Assembly: GCA_029259115.1 (NCBI GenBank)
Contig: JAPDJO010000051.1
Coordinates: 1-61,338, forward strand
Origin: Thermoplasmatota archaeon
Lineage (GTDB): Archaea > Thermoplasmatota > E2 > DHVEG-1 > B18-G2
Length of the DNA stretch: 61,338 nt
Reading direction: 5' to 3'
This document shows, piece after piece, positions 1 through 53,891 of this stretch. The translations under genes and the position numbers were made by a program. Positions within the stretch are counted from its first letter, which is position 1. Each line of letters begins with the position of its first letter. The notes below the pieces were generated by a model. It was not told where the DNA came from. It ran no database searches and saw nothing but the letters and a program-made list of their open reading frames with translations.

Positions 1-372
1 TGTTATCTTTTCAACCTTTGTATCCAACAGATATTTGATTCCTCTGTCCTGAGCTAACTTGGCCATAAATCTGTCAAATTTTCCTCTGTCTATAGCGAAA
101 GCATGGAGTCTGTCTCCACCTATGCGGTATGTATTTCCTTTTGGGGAATGTATATATGCTCCAAATATCTTATTTTGCACAAAATCCACATCTTCTGGAT
201 TAAGGTTTAACAGCTCTAAGGTTTTCCTTGATATTAAACCGGCACACTCCGCAGGTTCACCTATGACTTTTCTTTTTTCGATGGCTAGGGTTTCTATGTT
301 ATCGACACCCTTTGCAACGGCATTTCCTGCTGCGCCTGCGCCAACGATTATCAGATCGTAACGCTCTCTCAC
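1..372 (-). CDS. Geranylgeranyl reductase family flavoprotein, 3' end cut by window edge
   Basis: The reverse strand reads from a GTG start as the N-terminal 124 residues of an FAD-dependent reductase. The dinucleotide-binding motif GAGAAG lies at about residues 10-15 and is followed by EPAECAGLIS, the typical geranylgeranyl-reductase (GGR) signature that places a Cys near the flavin. This family saturates isoprenoid double bonds of archaeal lipids or reduces related polyprenyl compounds; which substrate this paralogue uses cannot be told. It is divergent from the 416 gene, and a second, full-length GGR lies 1.4 kb away. The carboxyl end is outside the window. The GTG was chosen because no ATG lies between it and the GxGxxG motif. 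Confidence 0.85.
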   Translation of the reverse strand, partial: MRERYDLIIVGAGAAGNAVAKGVDNIETLAIEKRKVIGEPAECAGLISRKTLELLNLNPEDVDFVQNKIFGAYIHSPKGNTYRIGGDRLHAFAIDRGKFDRFMAKLAQDRGIKYLLDTKVEKIT

Positions 373-415
373 TAGGTTTAAGTAATGCAGAAAGATTTAT
401 AACCGAAGCGGTAGG

Positions 416-667
416 ATGAGAAGTAGAAATACCGATAATCTGTTGTGTAGGTTCGTAACCGATGGAAGCGGAAACAAGATAGGGGAGAGTGTAGCTATAG
501 ATAAAGATGTTCTTATCATAAAGATGGGTAAAGAATTCATAGGGGTACCCCTGAAACATGTGGAAGATCTTGGAGATTATCTAAAAGTTAGAGGTTTGTT
601 AAGCATAGATAAAGCTAGAGAGATGGGAAAGAGATGGGAGGGGAAGTATGCGAAGAGAAAAAGATGA
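416..667 (+). CDS. Small beta-barrel-like conserved archaeal protein (DUF5749-like)
   Basis: This 83-residue basic protein has short beta-rich segments (GNKIGESVAIDKDVLIIK, EFIGVPLKHV) reminiscent of PRC-barrel-type or DUF5749 archaeal proteins. The C-terminus is a cluster of Lys and Arg. It overlaps the following pth2 reading frame by 20 bases if Pth2 starts at its first ATG, so the two are probably co-transcribed. No catalytic motif is visible. Family assignment is from general resemblance and is not firm; that it is a real gene is supported by the tight packing with pth2. Confidence 0.6.
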   Translation: MRSRNTDNLLCRFVTDGSGNKIGESVAIDKDVLIIKMGKEFIGVPLKHVEDLGDYLKVRGLLSIDKAREMGKRWEGKYAKRKR

Positions 668-1016
668 TTATAAGATGGTTATCGTTGTCAGGGATGATCT
701 TAAGCTTTCTCCGGGAAAATTACCTGTGCAGGTTTCGCATGCTGCTGTAGAGTGCTCCCTTCTATCTAAAAGAAAAAAACCAGGATGGTTCAGGAAATGG
801 AGGGACCAAGGAGCAAAGAAAGTTGTTGTTAAAGTTAATGATCTTGATGATTTGCATAAGTTAAAAGATGAAGCAGAGGATCTAAAGCTTGTTGCAGAAA
901 TCATAAAAGATGCTGGTCTGACAGAGATTCCTCCTGGAACGGAAACAGTATTAGGCATAGGTCCAGCACCTTCGAGTGTGATCGATAGGATTACGGGCGA
1001 TTTACCTCTGCTTTGA
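648..1016 (+). CDS. pth2: Peptidyl-tRNA hydrolase, archaeal/eukaryotic type (Pth2)
   Basis: Pth2 cleaves the ester bond of peptidyl-tRNAs that drop off the ribosome, recycling tRNA. The sequence shows the Pth2 core: VIVVRDDLKLSPGKLPVQVSHAAV near the N-terminus (catalytic-region Lys, Gln and His) and the C-terminal GTETVLGIGPAPSSVIDRITGDLPL block. Two starts are possible, ATG 648 (122 residues, overlapping the upstream gene) and ATG 675 (113 residues). The family usually begins only a few residues before VIVVR, which favours 675. It belongs to a forward run of genes reaching to about 4.2 kb. Confidence 0.93.
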   Translation: MRREKDDYKMVIVVRDDLKLSPGKLPVQVSHAAVECSLLSKRKKPGWFRKWRDQGAKKVVVKVNDLDDLHKLKDEAEDLKLVAEIIKDAGLTEIPPGTETVLGIGPAPSSVIDRITGDLPLL

Positions 1017-1060
1017 TTTTGGGGTAAAGATTTTTACTGTGATCTTCCTATACCTCTTTC

Positions 1061-1636
1061 GTGATAAAAAAACAGGTACGCATTCTCGGAATAGATGATG
1101 GTCCCTTTCGTTTTGATCAGAAGAAAACGTTAGTTATTGGCGTTGTGCTGAGAGGTAATGGGTATTTAGAAGGTGTATTGAAAAGAGAGATAGAGGTAGA
1201 TGGTAAAGATTCAACTGGTGTGATTCTAGATATGATAAAGAAAACTAGACATAGAGATCAGATCAGAGTGATAATGCTGGATGGAATAGCTCTTGGTGGA
1301 TTCAATATAGTAGACATCGATAGACTGTATAAAGAATGCGAGATTCCTGTAATAACGATAACTAGAGAAAAGCCTGATTTTGATATGATACTGAAAACCC
1401 TTCAGATGAAGTTCTCCGACTGGGAGGAAAGGTGGAAGATGTTTAAAGACAACAAGATTTACGAGATTGAAACACCCCATAATCCTATATACATATCCTG
1501 CAAGGGCGTATCAGTGGAGGAAGCGAAAGAGATAATAAAGATATCAACTATACGAGGAGCAATTCCTGAGCCGATAAGGGTTGCTCACATCATAGCCTCT
1601 GGAGTAGTTAGAGGTGAATCCTATGGAAAAGCCTAA
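1061..1636 (+). CDS. DUF99 family protein (UPF0215, endonuclease V-related fold)
   Basis: The 191-residue protein starts with GTG and carries the DUF99 pattern: RILGIDDGPF at the N-terminus, IRVIMLDGIALGGFNIVDI in the middle and PEPIRVAHIIASGVVRGES at the end. DUF99 proteins are widespread in archaea and are related in fold to endonuclease V, but their biochemical role is not established. The last 14 bases overlap the ferredoxin gene that follows (if that starts at ATG 1623), pointing to an operon with it and the GGR. Confidence 0.85.
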   Translation: MIKKQVRILGIDDGPFRFDQKKTLVIGVVLRGNGYLEGVLKREIEVDGKDSTGVILDMIKKTRHRDQIRVIMLDGIALGGFNIVDIDRLYKECEIPVITITREKPDFDMILKTLQMKFSDWEERWKMFKDNKIYEIETPHNPIYISCKGVSVEEAKEIIKISTIRGAIPEPIRVAHIIASGVVRGESYGKA

Positions 1637-1805
1637 AGCAAAAGTAGATGAAAGTAAATGTCTAGGTTGTTCCGGTTGTGTAGCTATATGCCCAGAGGAG
1701 GCTATTGATTTTTATGACAAGGCTTTTGTGATTAGAGAGAGATGTATATCATGCTACCTTTGCATAAACTATTGTCCTGCAGGAGCTATTTCTGAGGAGG
1801 ATTAG
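1623..1805 (+). CDS. 2x[4Fe-4S] ferredoxin
   Basis: This 60-residue protein has two classic CxxCxxCxxxC clusters (CLGCSGCVAICPEE and CISCYLCINYCPAG). ATG 1623 is preferred over an in-frame GTG at 1614 because GAGGTG at 1611-1616 makes a good ribosome-binding site for it. It is followed after one base by the GGR gene. In Methanosarcina a ferredoxin encoded beside GGR is the electron donor for full saturation of archaeal lipids, so the same partnership is likely here; this is inference from gene order. Confidence 0.92.
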   Translation: MEKPKAKVDESKCLGCSGCVAICPEEAIDFYDKAFVIRERCISCYLCINYCPAGAISEED

Positions 1806-1806
1806 T

Positions 1807-2994
1807 ATGAAGAGGTTTGATTATGATGTTGTTGTAGTTGGAGGTGGGCCAGCGGGCCTAGTAACATCTATGTACATATCTGAAAAAGGCTTCTCTGTAG
1901 CTGTGCTTGAGAGGGATAAAGAGATAGGCGTTCCTGTCCTATGTGGAGAAGGGATAAGCAAGAAGGTTGATGATCTTGGAATAATTGATAGAGGAAGGTG
2001 GATAGAGAATGAAGTTGTAGGGGCTAGGATCTTTTCTCCAAACGGAACTACGGTTAAGTTATCAGCAGAACATGCTGGTGGCGAGACCGGATATATCATC
2101 GATAGGGAGATTTTTGATAAAGAGTTGGCTAGACTTTCGGCAAAGAAGGGAACAGATATATTTCTGAGGTGTAACGCAAAACAAGGCATCTTTGAAAACG
2201 GAAAGTTGGTTGGAGTAAAAGCGGATTTGGGTGGTGAAGAGGTTGAGTTTTTTGCAAAGGTTATAGTTGGGGCTGATGGTGTAGAGTCTAGAGTTGGAAG
2301 GTGGGTTGGGATAGATACAAGGCTCAAACCAAAAGATATAGTTTCCTGTTTTGAGTATACTCTGTCAGGAATAGAGTGTAATAGAGAATATAGTGACTTT
2401 TATGTAGGTAAAAGTCTAGCGCCAGGCGGATACATATGGATATTCCCAAAAAGTGATGATGTTGCAAATGTTGGTATAGGTGTTTTGGGAAGTTACAGTA
2501 AGCCTGGATTAGCCAAAGAACTTCTAGACAGATTTATAGAGAGTAAAGAGGAACTAAGAAAAGGTAAAGCGATCAGAGTTCTAACTGGTGCTGTCCCGGT
2601 AGCGAAACCAATAGAAAGTTTGAGAGATAACGTTATCTTGGTTGGAGATGCAGCAAGACATACGGATCCTTTGACTGGTGGGGGCATAATGCATGCTCTT
2701 ATAGGGGGAAGAATAGCAGGAGAAACCATAGCAGAGAGTTTAGAATCTAACGATGTTTCTATATTGAAGAAATACGAGGAGAGGTGGAAAGAAAAATTGG
2801 AAAAGAAGCTCAAAAGAAATTACATGATGAAGGAAATTGCATCGACCTTCGATGACAAAACTTTTGATATGCTTGCCGATTCTGTGAAAGATATAAACTT
2901 CGATGAGTTTAGTACGTATGGTCTCATAAAGGCTTTAGTTACAAAGCATCCATCTTTACTGATAAAGTTAAAACCTTTGTTGGGTTTAAGGTAA
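1807..2994 (+). CDS. Digeranylgeranylglycerophospholipid reductase (GGR family)
   Basis: The 395-residue flavoprotein starts after an AGGAGG-like site in the end of the ferredoxin gene. It has VVVVGGGPAGLVTS (FAD-binding GxGxxG) at residues 8-21, the PVLCGEGISKK active-site segment, and a second flavin-binding block (NVILVGDAARHTDPLTGGGIMHA) near residues 275-297. These are the features of archaeal GGR, which saturates the geranylgeranyl chains of membrane ether lipids at the cytoplasmic face. The adjacent ferredoxin and NAD kinase are consistent with reductive lipid work. Substrate range of the family is broad, so the exact lipid is inferred. Confidence 0.9.
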   Translation: MKRFDYDVVVVGGGPAGLVTSMYISEKGFSVAVLERDKEIGVPVLCGEGISKKVDDLGIIDRGRWIENEVVGARIFSPNGTTVKLSAEHAGGETGYIIDREIFDKELARLSAKKGTDIFLRCNAKQGIFENGKLVGVKADLGGEEVEFFAKVIVGADGVESRVGRWVGIDTRLKPKDIVSCFEYTLSGIECNREYSDFYVGKSLAPGGYIWIFPKSDDVANVGIGVLGSYSKPGLAKELLDRFIESKEELRKGKAIRVLTGAVPVAKPIESLRDNVILVGDAARHTDPLTGGGIMHALIGGRIAGETIAESLESNDVSILKKYEERWKEKLEKKLKRNYMMKEIASTFDDKTFDMLADSVKDINFDEFSTYGLIKALVTKHPSLLIKLKPLLGLR

Positions 2995-2998
2995 TTGG

Positions 2999-3811
2999 AT
3001 GATATGGGGTTTGATAGTTAAACCGAATGATAAGAGGACAGAGAAACTAGCAAGAGAAATATTAGAGCTATTGAAAGACAGTGGAGAGGTTTACATAGAG
3101 AAGGGTTTTGCAAAAGTTCTAGGTGAGGAAGGTTTTTCGAGGGAAGATTTGAATAGAAAATGCGATATAATTGTTACAGTTGGTGGCGATGGTACCATAC
3201 TCTATGCTTTAGAGAGGGTAGAGAAACCTATATTTGCAATAAACTGTAGCGCGATGGGTTTTTTGACGGAAGTTGATGCGAAGTTTGCGAAAAGCGGAAT
3301 AGAGAAGATCTTGAAAGGAGATTATAATATTGAAGAAAGAGCTAGACTAAAGGTTTTCTTGAACAAAAAAAGACTAGAAGATGCTTCAAACGAGATAACC
3401 GTTCAGACAGCAAATGTTGCAAAGATAATAGAGTTTTCTGTATCAGTTGATGGGGAGCTTATAGATAAAGTAAAAGCAGATGGAATAATAATAGCCACCC
3501 CAACCGGAGCAACTGGATATGCCCTAAGTGTGGGTGGCCCCATAGTTGATCCTAGCGTAAACGCAGCGATAATTGCTCCAATTGCTCCTTTCAAGTTATC
3601 ATCTAGGCCTTGGATAGTTCCAATAGATAAAAAGATATGTATAGATCTTTTGGAGAGTAGCAAAAGAGCTAAACTTGTTATCGATGGTAGAAACTCATAT
3701 GATGTCAAACCTGGAGAGAGGGTATGTGTTACTTTGTCTGAAAAGAAGTCTAGATTTGTGAGATTTGGAGAATCTTTCTATCAAACTGTGAGGTTAAAAC
3801 TGGTAAGATGA
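2999..3811 (+). CDS. nadK: NAD kinase
   Basis: ATP-NAD kinase, 270 residues, making NADP from NAD. It contains the diagnostic GGDGT motif (VTVGGDGTILYAL, about residue 62), INCSAMGFLTEV, the substrate-binding ATPTGATGYALSVGGPIVDP block and a C-terminal FVRFGESFYQ segment. It starts 4 bases after the GGR stop and its own stop overlaps the next start (ATGA), so it sits inside the same transcription unit as the lipid reductase. Confidence 0.94.
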   Translation: MIWGLIVKPNDKRTEKLAREILELLKDSGEVYIEKGFAKVLGEEGFSREDLNRKCDIIVTVGGDGTILYALERVEKPIFAINCSAMGFLTEVDAKFAKSGIEKILKGDYNIEERARLKVFLNKKRLEDASNEITVQTANVAKIIEFSVSVDGELIDKVKADGIIIATPTGATGYALSVGGPIVDPSVNAAIIAPIAPFKLSSRPWIVPIDKKICIDLLESSKRAKLVIDGRNSYDVKPGERVCVTLSEKKSRFVRFGESFYQTVRLKLVR

Positions 3812-4179
3812 GAAAGTGGAAAATAGATAGAGAATGTCTAGATACGATTCTTGAGAGTTCTAAATCTATGCATCCGAGAGAATTTGCTGGTTTTCTAAGA
3901 GCTGATGGAGATGTCATAAGAGAGGTTCTCCTTCTGCCTGGCATGATACATGGGGATAGGCATGCCATGTTCAATCTAGCGATGCTTCCCATAGATTATT
4001 CTATAGTTGGAACCGTGCATAGCCATCCATCTTTATCAAATAAACCTTCCAAGGAGGATTTGCAGATGTTTTTCAAATATGGTAAAGTACATATCATAGT
4101 TGCTATGCCTTATAATGAGAAATCGTGGAAAGCCTATGACTGGAATGGTAGAGAGATAGAGGTTGAGATTATTGAATAG
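3808..4179 (+). CDS. JAMM/MPN-family metallopeptidase
   Basis: This 123-residue protein has the JAMM zinc site: an upstream Glu in the MHPREFAGFL segment and the HSHPSLSNKPSKED motif at residues 71-84 (H71, H73, S81-type Ser and Asp). Archaeal JAMM1 proteins remove ubiquitin-like SAMP tags; others act on different isopeptide or peptide bonds. A SAMP-like MoaD gene and an E1-like gene are present at 31.7-32.7 kb in the window, so desampylation is a reasonable guess. It overlaps nadK by 4 bases. Confidence 0.85.
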   Translation: MRKWKIDRECLDTILESSKSMHPREFAGFLRADGDVIREVLLLPGMIHGDRHAMFNLAMLPIDYSIVGTVHSHPSLSNKPSKEDLQMFFKYGKVHIIVAMPYNEKSWKAYDWNGREIEVEIIE

Positions 4180-4208
4180 ATTTTAATTCTTGTATTTCTT
4201 AACGAAAA

Positions 4209-5246
4209 ATGATGGACCTCTCAATAATAGATACATTTATCATAGCCCCTCTAGCTCCGCTTGCTGGAATTGTGCTTTTCTGGTTTATCCAGCTATTGTT
4301 TGCAGAAAGTCTAAAGGTTTTGCTGAGAGAAATCTGGGAAAACCATAAAGCCTTCTGTAGATTCTCAAACTTTATTGCTCTCTTCTTCCAGTCCCTGTCT
4401 CATGCACTTGGATACACATTAACAGGGATAGGTGTAGGAGAGTTTTCTTTAAGTGTAAAAGATGCAAAGGTCTCTCCCAAGAAAGAGAAAAAGGGTTTGC
4501 CTAAGTTCCTTGCTAATCTTTTTCTGGTTTTGGGTCCTTTTTTCATCCCTCCTTTGATTGTTTTTCTCATCTACTTACCTTTCTTCCCGGGTTTTACTCT
4601 ACAGGAATGCTACACATTCTCAACCTCTCTTATATCGTTTGGCTCATTACTTCGGCAGTTTGGTATTAATTTCTTAAAATTCCTATTTTATCTCGATCTT
4701 TCTAACCCATTCCATATCATCTTTCTAATCATCTTTCTCCTAGTTGGATTGGGTATAAGGCCTAGCTTCATAGAGGAAGAAGAAAAGAGGGTTGGTATGG
4801 TTGATGATCTTCTGAGGGTAAAAGATCTTATTTTTTCTCATCCATACTTTGTTATAGCGCTCCTAGTTTCTCTGTACATCGTCTTTTACGTTCTTTACTT
4901 CCTTAATCTACCATTTTATGTTTTGATATTCTCGTTTTTTGGCTGGTTATCGATAATATCAATAACTTCTCTTCTTTTAGCACATTTCATTGTGTTTCTA
5001 GTTTTGGCAAGTGATAGGCTTCCTTCCTTCAAGAGATTCTTGCCTTTTTCTCTCCTCATCATATCCTATACACTTTACAGATTTATCTTTTATCTCACCA
5101 AGAGTGATTTGGCTCTTCCATTGTCTAACATTCTCAGCCTTGCTACAACCTTTGTAGTAGTTTTTCTAGTATTGAGGTTTGAGACCAATAAGCTTAAAAT
5201 GGAGAAAGAGATGGTCGAAGCTGAGGAAAGAGAAGATGAAGATTGA
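4209..5246 (+). CDS. Polytopic membrane protein, function unknown
   Basis: The 345-residue product has about eight strongly hydrophobic segments (for example residues 10-32, 108-130, 165-190, 215-240, 245-270, 280-300, 305-325) and an acidic C-terminus (VEAEEREDED). A charged stretch near residues 80-100 (DAKVSPKKEKKG) is probably cytoplasmic. No HExxH or other enzyme motif is visible. Its stop overlaps the start of the PH-domain membrane protein that follows by 11 bases, so the two are likely partners. I do not recognise the family. Confidence 0.7.
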   Translation: MMDLSIIDTFIIAPLAPLAGIVLFWFIQLLFAESLKVLLREIWENHKAFCRFSNFIALFFQSLSHALGYTLTGIGVGEFSLSVKDAKVSPKKEKKGLPKFLANLFLVLGPFFIPPLIVFLIYLPFFPGFTLQECYTFSTSLISFGSLLRQFGINFLKFLFYLDLSNPFHIIFLIIFLLVGLGIRPSFIEEEEKRVGMVDDLLRVKDLIFSHPYFVIALLVSLYIVFYVLYFLNLPFYVLIFSFFGWLSIISITSLLLAHFIVFLVLASDRLPSFKRFLPFSLLIISYTLYRFIFYLTKSDLALPLSNILSLATTFVVVFLVLRFETNKLKMEKEMVEAEEREDED

Positions 5247-6108
5247 AGAGGATCTGCTCAAAGGAGAAAAGATAGAGAAGGTTTTAACTCCTCATCCTCT
5301 CTCATTCATGGGTCTTCAATCAATATGGTTCTTCTTATTGGTCTTTGGTATAATCCTTTGGTGGTCAGCAAACTATTCTCAATACTCAAGTTATTTTAGC
5401 TCATGGATTGTTGTTCTATCCTTATGGTGGGTTGGCTTAATCTTGGCTGGGATTGTTGCATCTCTTGTTTCGATAAGATGGAGATTCTTTTTCCTCTATG
5501 TTTTTGTAGCATCCTTAGGAACCTTTATGGCATGGAAGTTTAATTGGTTAAAGGATGGAGCATCTACAAGTTTCTTTATCCTAATTTACTCTATCTGCGT
5601 ATCTGCTATCATATTTCTAGGAGTTTATGTTTTTGTAAAATCCCACAGATACATACTAACTGATTACAGAATCATATTTAAGGGAGGTGTTCTAAGGAAA
5701 AGAGAGAGGACACTAAGATATGATAAAGTTACGGATGTTGATGGCACTCAAGGCATACTTGGCCAGATTTTTGATTTCGGCACCATAATACCTATAACTC
5801 AATCTGGCTTTGGTCTCGGATCTGATCAGACGTTTGCGGCAGGCGGAGTCGAAGCTAAAGGAAAAAGACTAGGGATATTTGGTCTGGCTGGTGGAGCAAA
5901 AGAGGTAAAGACTCCAAGAGCTAGAACATATTATGAGTTGCATGGAGTTTATCCATATAGAGAGGTAAGGAAGCTCTTGGAGGAATTGATACAGGGACAT
6001 GTCATTACTCCCTATCAGAAGGAACAGGTTGAGTTGCAGAGAGAACAGCTAGAGTTACAGAGAGAAATGAAGGAGCTTTTGGAGAGACAGAAGGAGCTGA
6101 AGGATTAG
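5236..6108 (+). CDS. Membrane protein with bacterial PH-like (bPH2, YdbS-type) domain
   Basis: From ATG 5236 the protein is 290 residues. Four hydrophobic segments fill roughly residues 25-135, followed by a bPH2-type domain (SHRYILTDYRIIFKGGVLRKRERTLRYDKVTDVDGTQGILGQIFDFGTI), which is the hallmark of the YdbS/YdbT membrane family. The C-terminal 40 residues form a Gln/Glu-rich coiled coil (repeats of VELQREQLELQREMKELL). A glycine-rich insert (GFGLGSDQTFAAGGVEAKG) interrupts the domain. The in-frame ATG at 5179 is less likely because it would overlap the upstream gene by 68 bases. Function is unknown; the coiled coil suggests oligomerisation. Confidence 0.75.
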   Translation: MKIEEDLLKGEKIEKVLTPHPLSFMGLQSIWFFLLVFGIILWWSANYSQYSSYFSSWIVVLSLWWVGLILAGIVASLVSIRWRFFFLYVFVASLGTFMAWKFNWLKDGASTSFFILIYSICVSAIIFLGVYVFVKSHRYILTDYRIIFKGGVLRKRERTLRYDKVTDVDGTQGILGQIFDFGTIIPITQSGFGLGSDQTFAAGGVEAKGKRLGIFGLAGGAKEVKTPRARTYYELHGVYPYREVRKLLEELIQGHVITPYQKEQVELQREQLELQREMKELLERQKELKD

Positions 6109-7615: not shown

Positions 7616-7718
7616 TTTTTCTTTGAGGATGTATTGAAGAATTGCTATAGAATATTATGACTATACACTTTGCTTTTGCTTTTACTTGCTTCTCCTCTAT
7701 CTCATCAATGCAGTTACA

Positions 7719-7730
7719 TTTATATATAAA
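7719..7730 (+). promoter_or_regulatory. TATA box of caspase-like gene
   Basis: An uninterrupted TTTATATATAAA lies 28-39 bases ahead of ATG 7758. Transcription would begin near 7750, giving a leader of only a few bases. Confidence 0.6.
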
Positions 7731-7757
7731 TTTTCCAATTCAAATCGGGGTATAGAC

Positions 7758-9113
7758 ATGAGGGTACTTGCTATACTATCTGTGTGCTTCTTGCTCTTGG
7801 GTTGTATATCCCAAGTGGCGTCAGCCGCAGGGCATTATGTAGACAAGATAAATCGTCAGGGGAGTAGTAACTCTACATCTAATAGTATTGGTAGAAATTA
7901 CAGAGCTGTAATTATCGGAATTTCTGATTATCCTGGAACTCAAAACGATTTATCAACACCTGTTAAAAGTGCATTGGCTATAAAGAGTTGTCTAGAAAGG
8001 GGAAGTAGTTATTATACTGTAAAACTTTTAACTGATGGTTCGGCAACTCTAAGCAACGTGAGAAATGCCCTAGATTGGCTCAAAAGTAAGGCGGATGAAA
8101 ATGATATATCCTTTGTGTACTACTGTGGCCACGGGTCTCAAGTGGAAACAAAGAATCGCCGACAAGAAGGAGACAGTATGGACGAGTGTCTATTCCTATA
8201 CGATGATATAATGCGAGATGATGAGTTTGTAGAGAGGTTGCTAGATATAAAAGGCATAGTGTTTGTCATCCTTGATTGTTGCAAGAGTGCAGGTTTTCAA
8301 GATGATCTGGAATACAGATATGATAAAGATAAGGGACTTTGGGAAGAAACAAAGGTATTCATGGTAACCGCGTTTACTGAAAATCAACTTCATTATGAAA
8401 TACCAGTACTTGGATACGGTCTGCTTTCTTTCCACATAATCGGCACGATGTCTCAAGATCCCGATAATGATGGATCCATAACAATAGATGAGATATATAT
8501 GCTAGCAGGAGAGAATTTTAAAAGAGCGAAGGAAGTTTTTGGTATCAGTTACGAAGGTGAAGTTAATATATACCCCCGCAGGGGGACGAATCACTATTAT
8601 GATTACATGGATACTCCCATAATCAAAGGCTTCAGAAATAAAAGTCCTTGGTTATCAGATCTTTCCATAAGCACCCGTCGTGGAAAATGTGAGTTAGACC
8701 TGAGAATGATTGATCTCGACAAGAACAAAATGAAAATATTCGTGTATTGGGGAGATGGAGAAGGGGAATGGTATGGCCCCTACAGAAGTTACGAGGATGT
8801 TTCCATATCTCATTACTACGATAGGTATGACGATTACAAGATAGGGATTGTCATAAGGGATTCGCATGGAGCAATAAGTATGTGGGAGATCAAGGAGGTC
8901 TCTATTGATAATAAGGATATTACTAAAAATGCAACTGTTAATCCAATAAAAAATGTTCACTCCGAAGAGAAGAAGCATCATAACTCCGTTAAACCGAGAT
9001 TTCATAGAAGAGTGGAAATTTTTAGGCATGGCTCTCTACTACGTTTGATAAAGAATAGACATATCGATATTATCTCTGACATACGGAAATGGATTGATAG
9101 AAACCGATGGTAA
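7758..9113 (+). CDS. Secreted caspase-like (clan CD, C14-type) peptidase with PKD-like domain
   Basis: The 451-residue protein begins with a signal peptide (hydrophobic residues 4-16, then LLGC, a possible lipobox, and a possible ASA cleavage site at about 21-23). The caspase-like domain spans about residues 45-260: YRAVIIGISDYPG, catalytic His125 in YCGHGSQ, and Cys174-Cys175 in ILDCCKSAG, like the DCCHSG of metacaspases. A Ca-loop-like DPDNDGSITIDEIY follows. The part after residue 300 contains YWGDGEGEWYGPY, resembling the PKD-type repeats of the protein at 18410. It acts outside the cell or at its surface. Peptidase activity is inferred from the intact His/Cys dyad. ATG 7758 is preferred over 7686, which lies upstream of the TATA box. 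Confidence 0.82.
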   Translation: MRVLAILSVCFLLLGCISQVASAAGHYVDKINRQGSSNSTSNSIGRNYRAVIIGISDYPGTQNDLSTPVKSALAIKSCLERGSSYYTVKLLTDGSATLSNVRNALDWLKSKADENDISFVYYCGHGSQVETKNRRQEGDSMDECLFLYDDIMRDDEFVERLLDIKGIVFVILDCCKSAGFQDDLEYRYDKDKGLWEETKVFMVTAFTENQLHYEIPVLGYGLLSFHIIGTMSQDPDNDGSITIDEIYMLAGENFKRAKEVFGISYEGEVNIYPRRGTNHYYDYMDTPIIKGFRNKSPWLSDLSISTRRGKCELDLRMIDLDKNKMKIFVYWGDGEGEWYGPYRSYEDVSISHYYDRYDDYKIGIVIRDSHGAISMWEIKEVSIDNKDITKNATVNPIKNVHSEEKKHHNSVKPRFHRRVEIFRHGSLLRLIKNRHIDIISDIRKWIDRNRW

Positions 9114-41074: not shown

Positions 41075-42163
41075 ATGGCAAAGAGGAGAAAGGTATCCGA
41101 GGAAATAGAGTTTAAGTTTCCAGAGTTTAATGAAGAGGAGTTTGTCAAAAAAGAGAAAAGAAACACAAAAGTTGTTATTCTCACTTTTATCTTTGGTTTA
41201 ATCGTAGGGATAGTATCTCAACCTCTCTGGGCGGGGATGAGTGAGAACATAAGATGGCCACTTATCCTCTTATTCGCGTTATTCATGACACCTTTCCTTT
41301 ACAAAATTATAACAAGAGTAGCTGATACATCAGATTACACTAGAAAGAACTGGTTCACCCTCTATAGTTCTTATCTTCTAACATGGGTAACTGTACTGAT
41401 AATCTTGATAAATCCACCCTTCTACGATGAGACCCCTCCACTAATAGACACTGCAATTCTACCCATCTATCAAGAGCCGGGCGGAACGGTGAAGATAGCA
41501 GCCTACATAACGGACAATTTCGGAATAAAAGAGGTAAATCTTTCTATAGAATCACCTGATGGAGAAAGAATCTATTTACCATATATTGAGAATAACAGTC
41601 TGTACGCGTGGGAATTTGAAAATAAAGATAATTTGCTGGGAAGATTCAACTTAACCATAACAGCTATAGACAAAAATGGAAACAAAAGAACCGCAAATGG
41701 AACATTCTGGTATTCCGAAGATGCTATTTCACTTGCATATCCAGAAAACGGAAGTACAGTAAATCATGCTACTCCAATAAGATTTGATGTAAAAGAATTG
41801 AGTAAGGATAACTTTAGAGTGTATTATCTAGTGGATGGCAACGAGATAAACTTGACGAAATCCGGAAACCTATATGAAACCTCTCCAGCTTATAAAGGTT
41901 GGGATAAAGGAAGAAATGTAACGATCACAGTAAAGGCTGAAGTTATACATTACTTCTATGATGTAAAAGTTAACAACACGGTCATAGATAGCTCGATGTA
42001 TATCTTTTCTACAGATCCAAATGATAACTACATAGGAACCGAGACTCCCCCAAAAGCAGAAAAGCTTCCACTACCTGAACAAAAGAGAATAACTCCAGGA
42101 TTTGAGATAGTTGCGCTTGTAATGGCAGTTATTCTAGTAGTGGCATGGAAGAGAAGGAAATGA
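41075..42163 (+). CDS. Membrane protein with extracellular beta domain and PGF-CTERM-like anchor
   Basis: The 362-residue protein has a charged N-terminus (1-30), three hydrophobic helices (about 32-52, 60-80, 96-115), then an extracellular part of two Ig-like repeats (TVKIAAYITDNFGIKEVNLSIESPDG and SLAYPENGSTVNHATPIRFDV) with many Asn-x-Ser/Thr sites. It ends TPGFEIVALVMAVILVVAWKRRK, close to the PGF-CTERM tripartite signal (Pro-Gly-Phe, helix, basic end) that archaeosortase A processes in other Euryarchaeota. N-terminal helices plus a sorting signal is an uncommon combination. Its stop overlaps the raSEA start. Confidence 0.72.
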   Translation: MAKRRKVSEEIEFKFPEFNEEEFVKKEKRNTKVVILTFIFGLIVGIVSQPLWAGMSENIRWPLILLFALFMTPFLYKIITRVADTSDYTRKNWFTLYSSYLLTWVTVLIILINPPFYDETPPLIDTAILPIYQEPGGTVKIAAYITDNFGIKEVNLSIESPDGERIYLPYIENNSLYAWEFENKDNLLGRFNLTITAIDKNGNKRTANGTFWYSEDAISLAYPENGSTVNHATPIRFDVKELSKDNFRVYYLVDGNEINLTKSGNLYETSPAYKGWDKGRNVTITVKAEVIHYFYDVKVNNTVIDSSMYIFSTDPNDNYIGTETPPKAEKLPLPEQKRITPGFEIVALVMAVILVVAWKRRK

Positions 42164-48505: not shown

Positions 48506-51500
48506 ATGAGATCCAAAAAAACGTGCGGGACAATTTTTATGATAGTGTCTCTGCTCATGTTGAGCATGGGTGCATTGTCTGAGATGCTGTACTACTATGA
48601 AGGTCCGGATACAACCTATGACAATATCAGTTTAGAGGTTTTCTATGTGGAAGGACCATCAAATTTGAAAGAAGGTTCAAAAATATCTGCGAACTTCACC
48701 TTGCTCAACATGAACACGGTCTACATTTACAATTTCACAGCATTCCTGAAAATCAAGCTGCCTGACGGTAAAATAATCGAGTATGATGGGGTTTACAGGG
48801 AAAAGTTGAGTGGATTGGAGAAGATTAGCTGCAACATAACGGTGAATCTTAACATGACAGGCAACTGGAGTATATGGCCATCATACAGGTTTTATGAATA
48901 TCCCGATAATGAGGGCGAAAGGATCGGCCCTGATTACTGGCATGCTTATAATTTTTCGGTTGCTGAAGCATTTCCCGATTTGGCCATTCATGCCATAAGA
49001 TACAATGAAGACAAAAATACGATAGAGGTTGTGGTGGAAAATATTGGTGATGCAGATGTCTCTGAAAATTTTATCGTTGCTATGTATGTTGATGAAGAAC
49101 TGATCAGGGAAGAGGTGGTATCTTCTCTCAAAAAAGGTGAGAGAAAAACCCTTTCTGTAGATGCATCGAATCTGTTCGATGGAAAGAAGATAAAATTCAA
49201 AGCTTTTGCCGATGCATGGAAGTGGATTGATGAAAAGAATGAGAATAATAATATTCTTGAGAGATATTTGACCCCACCAGAGGATACAACACCTCCGCAT
49301 TTTGTAGAAGGTCCAAACGCAGAGAACATAACTTTCGAATCAGCCGAAATAATCTGGAGAACAAACGAACCGTGCACCGGTCTTATCGAGTACGGAAAGA
49401 AATTAACCGATATGAAAAAAGGTATCAAAATCCAGGATCTTTCAACAGAGCATCATGCCCTTCTTGATAATCTTGAATCTAATACCGTGTATGTATATAG
49501 AGTGACAATATTTGATGAGGCGGGAAACAGAGCAATGAGTAGGCACCTGTTCTTCAGAACCTTATCCTATGACGATATAAAACCAACCATCGATGTTGAT
49601 ATATCTGAAAATGTGAGCGGACTTATAGAGATAAAAACGAACTCCTCTGATAATGGAGAGATTGATAGAGTTATCTTTTATATTGACAACAAACCAGTGT
49701 ACACAGATTATCATCCACCTTTTGGTTTTCGGTTCAATACAGAACTTTACAGCGACGGTTCTCATACGTTTGAGGCTAGGGTTTTTGATGCCGCCGGAAA
49801 CATGAACAGCTTCAGAAAAGGCATCTTCATACAAAATGGTATTCCGGAACCTGTCCAGACGATATGTCCTCGAGTTGAAATACTGAGTCCTGCAGATAAT
49901 TCTGGTGTACTGGGATATACACCAATAAGAGTAAGGGTGAATCATACTGTCGGTATAGATAGGGTGGAATTCTGGATAGATGGTGAGCTCGAGCACGTGG
50001 AGTACGGATATCGCGAAATGACCCTTGTGGATCCTCACCAAGGTGAGGTGATCAACATGGGGGATGAATACGAGGAGCTGCCATTTGAAAAGGTGTACGA
50101 CTGGTATGCCGATTCTCTAGAAGGGATAAATCTTCGGAACAGCATGTTTAATGAAAGCAGTGAAATTATAGAAAATAAGAGCACGGTTATAGAGGTGAGG
50201 GCATACGACAAGTTTGGGGTAGTTGGTAAGGACTCGATAACAGTTTACCATGAATGGGCGTCCCCACCGGATGCATCTCTTTCTCTCTCGAGAAGGGTGC
50301 ACAGGAGAGGCCATTATTTTGTAGTTAATGTGACCATATGGAACATGGGCTATCTCGATGCCGATGATGTGATTATAGAAGAGCATCATCTCGGCTTCCA
50401 GCCGGGACAGCTCTTATATTCTGATACTCCAATAGATTTCGAATTCACCGGTATAGAGACTGATCTCCTGGTAACTCAGTGGGGGATAATAAAAGTACCC
50501 GATGGAAAACTGAGAATATCGATTCCAGAGATACCTGCGAGAGAATACTTGAGATTCTCCTACGAACTTTTCCCCGTACTGTTCAATAGTGTTACCGCAG
50601 ATAGATATGGCATAGCCTCCCAGACCATTGTCAGATACCTTTCCGATTCGAAAGCCAAAACAAAATATTACAACTCATCCTTCGAACCCTCTCCAGGGTG
50701 GACAGCGCAGGAGGTTATTAATGCCTTCAAAACATCGGATTATCTTATCGTAACCAATCCCTTACTCCTGTACGCATTCACAACATCCTCCTTCCAGGAT
50801 GAGAATGAACTGCTCCTCACAATGGCTGAGCTTGCTAGGGAAAAAAATGGCGTACTCGGCTATCTCATGTTCAATTCCTATACAAATCCTCCTGTATATC
50901 CAGAGGACATAGATAATATTATTGAAAGTTGGGGTAAGAACTATCTGAATGAGAGTTGGGAATCGGAGGGCTATCTGTTATTAGTTGGTGAGATAGAGAT
51001 AATCCCATCATTTGTGAAAGGTTGGGATAGAGATTATGACCTGAGTGATGAAACGATATATCATACCGATTATCCATATGCAAGCACGAGAGGAGAGGCA
51101 ATATCTCCAGAACTCCATCTTGGAAGGATAATAGGTAACACTGCGGCAGATCTGATTATACCCATAAGGTCGAGTCTGGATGTTCATTATGGAAGAGCGG
51201 TATTTATCAAAGGACAGGGTGGAAAGGCTGTTTGCATAAGTGGATGGGGCAATGGTGAAGGTGGCTTCTGGTCGGATATAGATAATATTGGATCCAAACT
51301 ACAAGATGCAGGATTCAGTGTAGTGAAGATAAGAGGAAGCTCATACAAGAAGAGTGATGGAAAAGTGGATCAAGTAAGAGTGTACAATGAACTTCGTAAC
51401 AACTCCTATGGTGCAAGCGTTATAGTATACAGAAACCATGGAAATGATAACGGTAGGGCCTGGTCTGGTGTTGTAAGCAGTGATCCAAGGGTTAAAAAAC

Positions 51501-51859
51501 AATATGCTGGAAATATCAGTTTTGGAAACTCAAGACCACTCGTATTTGCGTGCTGTTGCTGTGCAGGGCAGTACGAAGACAATCCAAACTACTCTCCGGG
51601 TGGTGAAAATGGAATTGCCGAAGCGATGCTCAAGATAGGGGCTGGGGTATACATAGGATCGACAGAAATATCAATGAGCAACACAAACAGCGAATACAGC
51701 AGGGACTTTTTCGATCGATGGTTAGATGATCCAGACAAAAGCATAGCTCAGGCATGGAAAGAAACGAGACGTTATGCTGCCGATGAATGGTGGTTTGAGA
51801 ACGATAGATACTGGTCTGCTGAGTATCAGTTTTATGGTGATCCCAAATTTGGGGAGTGA
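48506..51859 (+). CDS. Large secreted C25-type (gingipain-like) cysteine peptidase with CARDB and fibronectin-like domains
   Basis: The 1117-residue protein has a signal peptide (TCGTIFMIVSLLMLSMGALS), then CARDB-like (about 30-250: DLAIHAIRYNEDKNTIEVVVENIGDADVSEN), fibronectin-III-like (ENITFESAEIIWRTNEPCTGLIEYGKK), several Ig-like (PTIDVDISENVSGLIEIKTNSSDNGEIDRVIFYID) and a second CARDB-like region. The peptidase lies at about 720-1117: His978 in VYRNHGNDNG and Cys1016-1019 in VFACCCCAGQYED, then AGVYIGSTEIS and the C25-typical end YQFYGDPKFG. The His/Cys dyad spacing fits clan CD. It lacks the usual N-terminal C25 propeptide and any membrane anchor; both features appear in the next gene, whose ATG overlaps its stop. 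Many Asn-x-Ser/Thr sites suggest glycosylation. Confidence 0.85.
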   Translation: MRSKKTCGTIFMIVSLLMLSMGALSEMLYYYEGPDTTYDNISLEVFYVEGPSNLKEGSKISANFTLLNMNTVYIYNFTAFLKIKLPDGKIIEYDGVYREKLSGLEKISCNITVNLNMTGNWSIWPSYRFYEYPDNEGERIGPDYWHAYNFSVAEAFPDLAIHAIRYNEDKNTIEVVVENIGDADVSENFIVAMYVDEELIREEVVSSLKKGERKTLSVDASNLFDGKKIKFKAFADAWKWIDEKNENNNILERYLTPPEDTTPPHFVEGPNAENITFESAEIIWRTNEPCTGLIEYGKKLTDMKKGIKIQDLSTEHHALLDNLESNTVYVYRVTIFDEAGNRAMSRHLFFRTLSYDDIKPTIDVDISENVSGLIEIKTNSSDNGEIDRVIFYIDNKPVYTDYHPPFGFRFNTELYSDGSHTFEARVFDAAGNMNSFRKGIFIQNGIPEPVQTICPRVEILSPADNSGVLGYTPIRVRVNHTVGIDRVEFWIDGELEHVEYGYREMTLVDPHQGEVINMGDEYEELPFEKVYDWYADSLEGINLRNSMFNESSEIIENKSTVIEVRAYDKFGVVGKDSITVYHEWASPPDASLSLSRRVHRRGHYFVVNVTIWNMGYLDADDVIIEEHHLGFQPGQLLYSDTPIDFEFTGIETDLLVTQWGIIKVPDGKLRISIPEIPAREYLRFSYELFPVLFNSVTADRYGIASQTIVRYLSDSKAKTKYYNSSFEPSPGWTAQEVINAFKTSDYLIVTNPLLLYAFTTSSFQDENELLLTMAELAREKNGVLGYLMFNSYTNPPVYPEDIDNIIESWGKNYLNESWESEGYLLLVGEIEIIPSFVKGWDRDYDLSDETIYHTDYPYASTRGEAISPELHLGRIIGNTAADLIIPIRSSLDVHYGRAVFIKGQGGKAVCISGWGNGEGGFWSDIDNIGSKLQDAGFSVVKIRGSSYKKSDGKVDQVRVYNELRNNSYGASVIVYRNHGNDNGRAWSGVVSSDPRVKKQYAGNISFGNSRPLVFACCCCAGQYEDNPNYSPGGENGIAEAMLKIGAGVYIGSTEISMSNTNSEYSRDFFDRWLDDPDKSIAQAWKETRRYAADEWWFENDRYWSAEYQFYGDPKFGE

Positions 51860-53118
51860 TAGAGATGGTAAGAAGATTCTGGTTTGTTTTGTTTGTGCTA
51901 ATGATGCTACAGATTTTCACGTTTCCAGGATACTCAGAGAATGAGATGGAAGAGGAAATTGAAATCGAAATACCTGGGTATGAAGTGAACAAAACAGACG
52001 GATATGATGAAGTCACCATACCCGGCGGGAGGATTTTATCCGTAGAGGGTAAGCCTCTTGTTCCATATTACATAGTGAGAAAGTGGTATTCTCAAGATAT
52101 TGAAATACAAAGTGTTGACCTCATAGAGAGAAGTGGTTTGAAGGAAGAAACCGGGCTTAATCTGAAAACTTTCAAGATCCAGTGGGGAGGAGAAAATCTC
52201 ACAGATGGAGAAGCATCCTCGGGCGCCGCCGGATGGTTTCCAGAAGAAAATTACACATGGTTTGTGGATGAAGAGCCGAATGGAACGAGCAGGTTGGTTT
52301 TAATTATCTTTCCATTCTTTTACAATAATATCACCAAGGAGTCCAGATTCTATCGACACTACACATTCAGAGTGAGTTATATATCCTCAAAGTTTTCGAT
52401 ATCCTCGGTATATCCTGATAAGTTTGGATACGATATCGGTGAGACAGTTGTTATTCATATTGTGATATCAAGTGATGATGAGCAACCAAGAACATTAGTA
52501 ATTGATGGAACTGTCAAGAAGCAGGGAAAAATTGTTGATTCGTTGCCTCCGGTAGAGTTGAAGGATTTCATATCTCTCGGTGATGCGGCGCTGGAATGGG
52601 ACACGAAAGATATCGAGCATGGATGGTATGATATAGAAGTGGAATTGAGAGACATTGACGGTTTCATACTTGATAGAAAAGCTTTTTCGCTCACCATAGG
52701 CAAAATGGAGGTAAATATAACAAATCTCACCGTCAATAAGAAAACTTTTGAAATCGGAAAAAACATAAAATTTTACGCTACAGTGGAGAATTGTGGGAAT
52801 GTTTCGGCATCAGGTCATTTGATTGTGGAAATTAGATGTGGCGGAGAAACCATAAAGACATACAGCTATCCATTTAACAATCTCTCATCCGGGGAAAGCA
52901 TTGATTTTGATGGTTCATGGGACACTTCAAATGCCACCAAGAACCAGACCTATTACGTTGTTGGATACGTTTCCTATGCTGGAAGATCCTCACTGCCAAT
53001 TATTGTGGAAATAAAAGCAGTGGAGAAACAGGGAAAGACACCAGGTTTTGAGATCCCATTACTGCTGACAGCGACACTTTTGGTTGCATTTTGCAGAAGG
53101 AAGATATTTAAGTCGTAG
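51856..53118 (+). CDS. Surface protein with C25-propeptide-like domain and PGF-CTERM-like anchor
   Basis: The 420-residue protein starts in an ATGA overlap with the peptidase gene. A signal peptide (WFVLFVLMMLQIFTFPGYS) is followed by EIPGYEVNKTDGYDEVTIPGG and EGKPLVPYYIVRKW, the pattern of the gingipain N-terminal propeptide (Gly-x-Pro-x-x-Pro within a beta domain). Two beta domains follow, then a CARDB-like domain (MEVNITNLTVNKKTFEIGKNIKFYATVENCGN) and the tail TPGFEIPLLLTATLLVAFCRRK, a PGF-CTERM-like sorting signal. It may act as a separate inhibitor or chaperone and anchor for the peptidase. That partnership is inference from operon structure and domain logic. Confidence 0.78.
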   Translation: MIEMVRRFWFVLFVLMMLQIFTFPGYSENEMEEEIEIEIPGYEVNKTDGYDEVTIPGGRILSVEGKPLVPYYIVRKWYSQDIEIQSVDLIERSGLKEETGLNLKTFKIQWGGENLTDGEASSGAAGWFPEENYTWFVDEEPNGTSRLVLIIFPFFYNNITKESRFYRHYTFRVSYISSKFSISSVYPDKFGYDIGETVVIHIVISSDDEQPRTLVIDGTVKKQGKIVDSLPPVELKDFISLGDAALEWDTKDIEHGWYDIEVELRDIDGFILDRKAFSLTIGKMEVNITNLTVNKKTFEIGKNIKFYATVENCGNVSASGHLIVEIRCGGETIKTYSYPFNNLSSGESIDFDGSWDTSNATKNQTYYVVGYVSYAGRSSLPIIVEIKAVEKQGKTPGFEIPLLLTATLLVAFCRRKIFKS

Positions 53119-53136
53119 GGAAACATTATATCCTAG

Positions 53137-53891
53137 ATGACCGAAGGTCCAACAGCGAGATTGAGAGCCATACAGATAGAAAAAGAGTTTCTGGGCAAAA
53201 GACTGGAGAATATAAATATCAGAAGTAAAAGGGTATTTGTTGATCCCAATGAACTTGTTGGAACAAGGTTGCGAAGAGCATATACATATGGTAAAAACAT
53301 CTTCTGAGTTTTGAACCATACGGAATAAGAATTCACCTTATGATGTATGGTAGCATAAGATTTGAAGAAAAGTTCTCAAAACCCGAGAACAGAATTAGAT
53401 TGATTTTGGATTTTGAATCTGGAAGGATGGTCGTTTACAATGCCCCGATAGTTGAGGTGGATTTTCTTGAAAACATAGAGGATAGATTGTCCAAGGAGCT
53501 TGGTATAGATCCTCTCAGGAACTGGGATGAGGAGAAACTATTCAACATGCTTATCGAGAATAGGGACAGAGTTATAGGTGAGGTACTCCTTGACCAGTCT
53601 GTATTTGCAGGTGTTGGAAATATCCTGAGAAACGAAATTCTTTTCAGGTCAGGCATAAGACCTGACAGGAGAATATCAGATATTCCAGAGAAAAAACTCA
53701 AACTTCTCATCAGGATAACAAAAAGACTCTGTGAGGAATTTCTTGATAGCAAACTCAAAGGCAGAGGGATAAAGAGATTGTTGATGGTTTACAACCGCAA
53801 ATACTGCGGGAGATGTGAGGGTAAGATAAGTTATTACAGAGACGAATTCACCGGGAGAAAGACTTTCTTCTGTCCAAACTGTCAGTCATAG
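53137..53891 (+). pseudogene. nei: Endonuclease VIII (Nei/Fpg family) gene with an internal frameshift
   Basis: The first part, from ATG 53137, reads TEGPTARLRAIQIEKEFLGKR to GKNIF and stops at TGA 53305. A one-base shift just before the stop restores LSFEPYGIRIHLMMYGSIRFEE and the rest to 53891, including the H2TH region (LLDQSVFAGVGNILRNEILFRSGIRPDR) and the zinc finger CGRCEGK...FFCPNCQS. The combined product, about 250 residues, is the right length for Nei. The residue after Met is Thr where the family has the catalytic Pro. Either a real frameshift mutation, a programmed shift or a sequence error could explain it. Confidence 0.8.

Follow-up and report, generated by a model that had tools for sequence, protein, structure and literature searches.

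Adjacent genes for a C25 peptidase and a C25 prodomain-like protein in a Thermoplasmatota archaeon: a candidate two-subunit surface protease

Introduction

The gingipains RgpB and Kgp of Porphyromonas gingivalis carry a C25 caspase-like domain with a His/Cys pair and, N-terminal to it in the same chain, a prodomain that is removed at maturation. The known role of C25 prodomains is that of an inhibitor, placed at the N-terminus and open to removal. The RgpB prodomain puts an arginine into the S1 pocket (PMC4357240), and isolated gingipain propeptides inhibit the mature enzymes in trans, with Ki values of 12 nM for RgpB and 2.04 µM for Kgp (PMC3677877). Here we describe a locus on contig JAPDJO010000051.1 of a Thermoplasmatota archaeon (GCA_029259115.1), in which a C25 catalytic domain with the same His/Cys pair and a prodomain of the same predicted fold are encoded by two adjacent genes, at positions 48506–53118 of the + strand. 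The contig was analysed over its full length of 61,338 nt, which is referred to as the window.

The prodomain is encoded by the gene next to that of the enzyme in the window and lies at the C-terminal side of the enzyme in fused relatives, in contrast to the N-terminal prodomain of the gingipains, whose inhibitory Arg/Lys is also not conserved in the family of the window. The canonical archaeal secreted C25 peptidases (MBG-D/Thermoprofundales and kin) belong to the same phylum as the studied archaeon and have the same two domains, but with the prodomain in front of C25 in one chain. The type IX secretion sortase PorU is likewise a C25 cell-surface enzyme and is not known to have a prodomain encoded apart from it. 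A regulatory prodomain in C-terminal position occurs in legumain (family C13, clan CD; PMC4357240). Legumain is a single chain of another peptidase family in clan CD, and its prodomain controls the zymogen.

A preliminary description of the window, made from the DNA sequence, had proposed a two-gene protease/anchor system and knew of no such arrangement; the open-licence papers searched likewise described no C25 prodomain that is C-terminal or encoded by a gene of its own. The arrangement proved to be real and was found at six other loci. The position of the prodomain behind C25, and a split found at one common border in seven genomes from several phyla, suggest that the pair can work in the other order and in trans.

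Catalytic protein encoded by gene 1

Gene 1 (48506–51859, + strand, as are all features of the pair) encodes a protein of 1117 amino acids (aa), predicted to be a secreted catalytic subunit by its signal-peptide-like start. The Peptidase C25 catalytic domain (PF01364, E 1.2e-23, 84.5 bits at a cut-off of 23) spanned aa 813–1114 (50942–51847). The catalytic dyad of the preliminary description, His978 and a cysteine run at 1016–1019, was found at these positions, and the alignment assigned the nucleophile column to Cys1018. Both residues, encoded at 51437–51439 (His978) and 51557–51559 (Cys1018), were kept in 33/33 rows of the alignment used for the tree of permuted and split relatives. N-terminal of the catalytic domain, gene 1 contained a CARDB domain (aa 157–252, 48974–49261; PF07705, E 5.3e-13), an fn3-like domain resembling the N-terminal domain of purple acid phosphatases (aa 280–352, 49343–49561; PF16656, E 9.6e-6, 26.5 bits, under the cut-off of 30) and a Big_7 immunoglobulin-like (Ig-like) domain (PF17957, E 9.7e-19), for which one of two matched stretches was located at aa 369–424 (49610–49777).

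The absence of a propeptide and of an anchor from this protein, as previously described, was upheld: Pfam detected no Propeptide_C25 in gene 1, the prodomain being located in the downstream gene instead, and the final 60 residues contained no hydrophobic segment that could serve as a C-terminal anchor. The protein terminated directly past the conserved end motif of the C25 domain (YGDPKFGE*). The catalytic fold was tested on a fused relative (L032) rather than on gene 1 itself. Its catalytic domain had an RgpB- and Kgp-like fold (Foldseek matches to 1cvr, E 3.5e-16, and to 4ief_D and 4rbm), with PorU (6za2) as a weaker match. By its catalytic domain and the aligned His/Cys pair, gene 1 belongs to peptidase family C25, and its product may be proteolytically active.

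Prodomain identity and layout of gene 2

Gene 2 (51865–53118) encodes 417 aa and is predicted, from its open reading frame, Pfam matches and hydrophobicity, to be a prodomain/anchor subunit. It starts with a signal-peptide-like segment (aa 1–24, 51865–51936; MVRRFWFVLFVLMMLQIFTFPGYS), visible as a hydrophobicity peak and not present in the single-chain relatives (alignment A1). This segment is followed by a C25 prodomain-like domain (aa ~30–178, 51952–52398), a beta domain (aa ~180–283, 52402–52713) that comes after the prodomain throughout the permuted family (alignments A4, A5 and A8), a CARDB domain (aa 287–364, 52723–52956; PF07705, E 6.3e-5) and a C-terminal tail (aa 393–417, 53041–53115). 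The beta and CARDB-like domains had both been anticipated in the preliminary description.

The prodomain could be detected by profile–profile, genome-wide hidden Markov model (HMM) and fold comparison, but not by direct sequence searches of Pfam or the PDB. Gene 2 had no match to Pfam Propeptide_C25 (PF08126) at E values up to 2, and searches of PDB sequences with gene 2 alone or with a five-sequence profile returned nothing. In contrast, when the AlphaFold2 model of gene 2 was compared with the PDB using Foldseek, the top six matches were all gingipain prodomains, namely four chains of 4ief (RgpB) and two of 5mun (Kgp). The best match to 4ief had an E value of 8e-6 and a target template modelling (TM) score of 0.56, and 5mun reached a TM score of 0.61. 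The overall predicted local distance difference test (pLDDT) of the model was 63, with values by block of mostly ~70–94 over residues 31–100 and 141–170. The gene 2 family aligned with 19 archaeal C25 propeptides over 129 columns (hhalign, P 2.6e-5), and a profile of these 19 canonical propeptides matched the RgpB prodomain sequence of 4ief with an E value of 5e-45. An HMM of the gene 2 family built from three seeds recovered canonical archaeal C25 propeptide regions across the phylum from ~E 1e-10, and one built from five seeds reached E 4.6e-15. Residues ~30–178 of gene 2 are thus identified as a C25 prodomain by profile and modelled fold, which agrees with the propeptide-like N-terminus reported earlier. 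Since this prodomain is invisible to Pfam, proteins of this kind appear prodomain-free in annotations. A reading of gene 2 as the beginning of another, canonical C25 gene was rejected, as it contains no C25 domain and the fused relatives have the prodomain after the catalytic domain.

The tail of gene 2 (TPGFEIPLLLTATLLVAFCRRKIFKS) consists of a TPGFE motif, a hydrophobic segment and a terminal RRK, and is presumed to be a membrane anchor or sorting signal. An assignment to PGF-CTERM was not sustained. No NCBIfam C-terminal model matched above its cut-off (Heimdall-CTERM, 15.0 bits at a cut-off of 24), and the exosortase/archaeosortase model PF09721, the one sortase model that was searched, had no match in the window genome (98.7% complete, 5.48% contamination). 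For these reasons, the label PGF-CTERM-like of the preliminary description fits only loosely. Another protein of the window (41075–42163, + strand) ends in RITPGFEIVALVMAVILVVAWKRRK, with TPGFE, a hydrophobic segment and an RRK tail as in gene 2, and both proteins matched Heimdall-CTERM under the cut-off. The TPGFE/RRK tail may be a surface anchor signal that is used genome-wide without a PF09721 sortase.

The junction between the two genes (51851–51867) has a layout in common with the other six split loci. A Shine-Dalgarno-like ggggag (51851–51856) is located within the last codons of gene 1, followed by the TGA stop of gene 1 and, after a gap of 5 nt, by the ATG of gene 2 in another frame. 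The listed open reading frame of gene 2 begins at a GTG (51856). The ATG at 51865 was preferred as the start, because it is situated 5 nt past the TGA and has the ggggag 8 nt upstream.

Single-chain relatives with the prodomain behind C25

Relatives were sought in a partial survey consisting of 1160 genome scans (some of which repeat one genome) and one productive pattern scan of GTDB. Nearly all genomes compared were metagenome-assembled genomes. The productive GTDB scan used a motif alignment (A7) built from the C25 domain only, which succeeded where a single-sequence query with gene 1 against genome contigs gave no match. Across some 25 chains, which came from Thermoplasmatota, methanogen-type archaea, Chloroflexota and other groups, the C25 domain was directly followed by the prodomain. 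Both proteins of the pair matched one continuous chain, C25 and then prodomain, in two genomes from the archaeal order of the window (L033 and L032), and this domain order was also observed in two chains of genome G076 and one of genome G155 (L086, L087 and L088). The fused chains of G076 possessed a C-terminal membrane segment. An AlphaFold2 model of a fused relative had a pLDDT of 80.8 and a predicted TM score of 0.59.

The C25-motif scan retrieved 23 loci (L111–L133) from Thermoplasmatota, Methanosarcinales/Methanomicrobia, Chloroflexota, Deltaproteobacteria/Myxococcota, Sumerlaeota, Caldiserica and Actinomycetota. The prodomain came after C25 in all 23, in the same frame at 20 loci and in the next gene at three; L116 and L129 were cut by a contig end, and the match of L129 was weak. 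Four of these loci (L118, L121, L131 and L133) are on the same contigs as L032, L033, L087 and L086. The canonical arrangement was different: in all ~48 other loci of the phylum with both prodomain and C25, the prodomain was in front and in one chain. Compared with the fused chains, the window pair is the permuted single-chain protein, with the cut placed exactly where C25 and prodomain meet. The idea that a gingipain-style N-terminal propeptide had been moved to another gene was consequently abandoned, as the prodomain of the single-chain relatives is C-terminal to C25 and the split is found at that border.

Several of the relatives had further peculiarities. L033, L086, L087 and L164 contained a large FG-GAP/VCBS-like insertion within the C25 catalytic domain. 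In L032 (positions 5456–5502, genome G026), an in-frame TAG and TAA were present 13 codons apart, upstream of the matched part, and the homology continued across them; a decayed gene, a sequence error or readthrough could each account for these stops. The window genome also encodes two more C25-like proteins at L035 (contig C5, 6000–16000), which are adjacent and in opposite orientation (111–3056, + strand, and 3278–5773, − strand). One has the prodomain followed by C25 and an insertion of ~155 residues between the C25 halves, which gives this genome at least one complete canonical C25 peptidase; the other matched C25 more weakly and had no prodomain match. Propeptide_C25 is very abundant in the archaeal order of the window, with up to 30 per genome, and only two were detected by Pfam in the window genome.

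Recurrence and history of the split

A separate downstream prodomain gene was present in the window and at six other loci, which belong to four Dehalococcoidia (L124/L163 of NIOZ-UU108, and L160, L161 and L162 of genomes G719, G764 and G632), one actinomycetotal genome (L125/L164 of STE_197) and one Caldiserica genome (L130/L165). The adjacency, which was to be looked for in archaeal genomes, therefore recurs, but all six further genomes are bacterial by their records or class. At 7/7 split loci, gene 1 ended with YGDPKFG plus 1–2 residues and had no hydrophobic segment after the C25 domain, gene 2 started 2–9 nt past the stop of gene 1 and encoded a separate signal peptide ahead of the prodomain, and a purine-rich motif resembling a ribosome-binding site was located within the last codons of gene 1. 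The gene 1 proteins of the split loci mostly had the front of CARDB, fn3-like and Big_7 domains (Pfam). Of the seven gene 2 proteins, five ended in a hydrophobic segment and a basic tail. Because the same cut was found at six other loci, the split was regarded as a recurrent two-gene arrangement and not an artefact.

In a tree of the C25 and prodomain regions, five split rows were grouped (support 99/96), and the window and L125 were left unplaced. Mapping of the split onto the tree needed two changes, and a single clade of all seven was not rejected (p-AU 0.161). The tree accommodates one origin as well as several. Fission, in one to three events, is likelier than fusion as the direction of change, since fused chains predominate and also make up the outgroup.

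Proposed role of gene 2

We hypothesized that the pair forms a two-subunit cell-surface cysteine protease, in which gene 2 serves as the lasting subunit that docks and anchors gene 1 through the old C25–prodomain interface, and consider this moderately probable. The ancestor would have been a single chain with N-terminal Ig-like domains, C25, the prodomain-like domain, beta/CARDB domains and a membrane anchor. In the lineage of the window, the cut would have fallen between C25 and prodomain, and the part downstream of it would have gained a signal peptide and a start site. Translational coupling, with a gap of 5 nt and a ribosome-binding site inside gene 1, would provide near-equal amounts of both proteins, which would be exported separately by Sec. 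The prodomain of gene 2 would then bind the gene 1 C25 domain in trans, for which the isolated gingipain propeptides provide a precedent (PMC3677877), by the interface through which the two domains of gingipains interact in cis, and gene 2 would act as a folding partner, possibly a chaperone, and as a non-covalent membrane tether for the anchorless gene 1 protein. A lasting docking or folding module that connects the catalytic domain with the surface is the simplest reading of the prodomain, given that the fused relatives place it between the enzyme and the anchor. Two findings weigh against this proposal. The gene 2 proteins of two of the seven split loci end in Cu_amine_oxidN1-type domains (PKD and Cu_amine_oxidN1 by Pfam in L164, a similar end by sequence in L165), so that a membrane anchor is not universal. 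Moreover, the nearest genomes, which belong to the genus and family of the window and several of which are incomplete, lacked the pair, so that it is not conserved near the window.

With respect to the family as a whole, we see about an even chance that it constitutes a widespread and so far undescribed kind of C25 surface protease, shared by archaea and bacteria, in which the prodomain has moved behind the catalytic domain and, once a disposable inhibitor, now serves permanently for docking and anchoring. In several lineages, this module would have become a separate co-translated subunit binding a soluble catalytic subunit. If the docking is true, it would represent a naturally bipartite protease of uncultured archaea and bacteria, made up of an anchor and an enzyme. 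The split pair also allows the conversion of a prodomain into a structural subunit to be tested directly.

Alternatively, gene 2 could exert zymogen control in trans, blocking the active site of gene 1 until it is cut or displaced to activate the protease, which we regard as possible but unlikely. The modelled fold of gene 2 is that of an inhibitory prodomain, gingipain prodomains do inhibit in trans (PMC3677877), and the tight coupling would supply an equimolar inhibitor. The trans inhibition suggested in the preliminary description is so far not supported by the residues concerned. In the column matched to RgpB Arg126, an assignment inferred via the chain numbering of 4ief, 19 RgpB-like archaeal propeptides had 18 R and 1 K, whereas the permuted/split family had 1 K among 22 sequences, and its inhibitory loop was short and variable. 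Since the inhibitory Arg/Lys is not conserved, inhibition of the gingipain type by gene 2 seems doubtful. The residue was mostly missing from a wider set of canonical archaeal propeptides too, so inhibition is compatible with its loss. A further argument against zymogen control is provided by the position of the prodomain in the fused relatives, between catalytic domain and anchor, where its removal would free the enzyme from the cell. The split might also be a neutral gene fission without functional meaning, with both proteins acting exactly as their single-chain relatives do. The core domains are all common to the fused and split forms, genes often undergo fission or fusion, and according to the tree, horizontal transfer may have spread the splits. 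Nevertheless, the constancy of the border, the tight spacing and the dedicated signal peptide at seven loci suggests selection for coupling and makes this explanation improbable; it would in any case involve the same docking mechanism as the anchored two-subunit protease and differ from it only in the purpose of the split.

It is very improbable that the prodomain of gene 2 no longer contacts the peptidase and is a mere beta-sandwich surface domain beside it. Adhesive domains are plentiful in both proteins and the residues of the inhibitory loop are not conserved, which speaks for this reading, but the prodomain directly followed the catalytic domain, fused or adjacent, at 23/23 C25-motif loci. 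In addition, the sequence distances of the C25 and prodomain parts were correlated among 29 relatives (r 0.48, p 2e-4), a correlation that is compatible with binding in trans but for which shared ancestry alone could suffice. Breakage of one gene by a frameshift or misassembly was conceivable for a single copy in one metagenome-assembled genome, in particular as L032 has two in-frame stops. Gene 2, however, has its own start, a ribosome-binding-like site and a signal peptide found in no fused relative at that position, and the layout recurs in six independent assemblies. After the discovery of the six further split loci, an artefact was considered barely credible and was rejected.

Other genes of the window

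A second clan CD peptidase is encoded ~40 kb from the pair (7686–9113, + strand). This protein is caspase-like (Peptidase_C14, Pfam E 1.8e-18), with a signal-peptide-like start and a weak C25 match. Directly 3′ of the pair (53140–53891, + strand), a gene of the formamidopyrimidine-DNA glycosylase/Nei type appears broken. Its open reading frame of 183 aa matches only from model position 68–79, and the N-terminal part is apparently in another frame, which indicates a frameshift or a sequence error.

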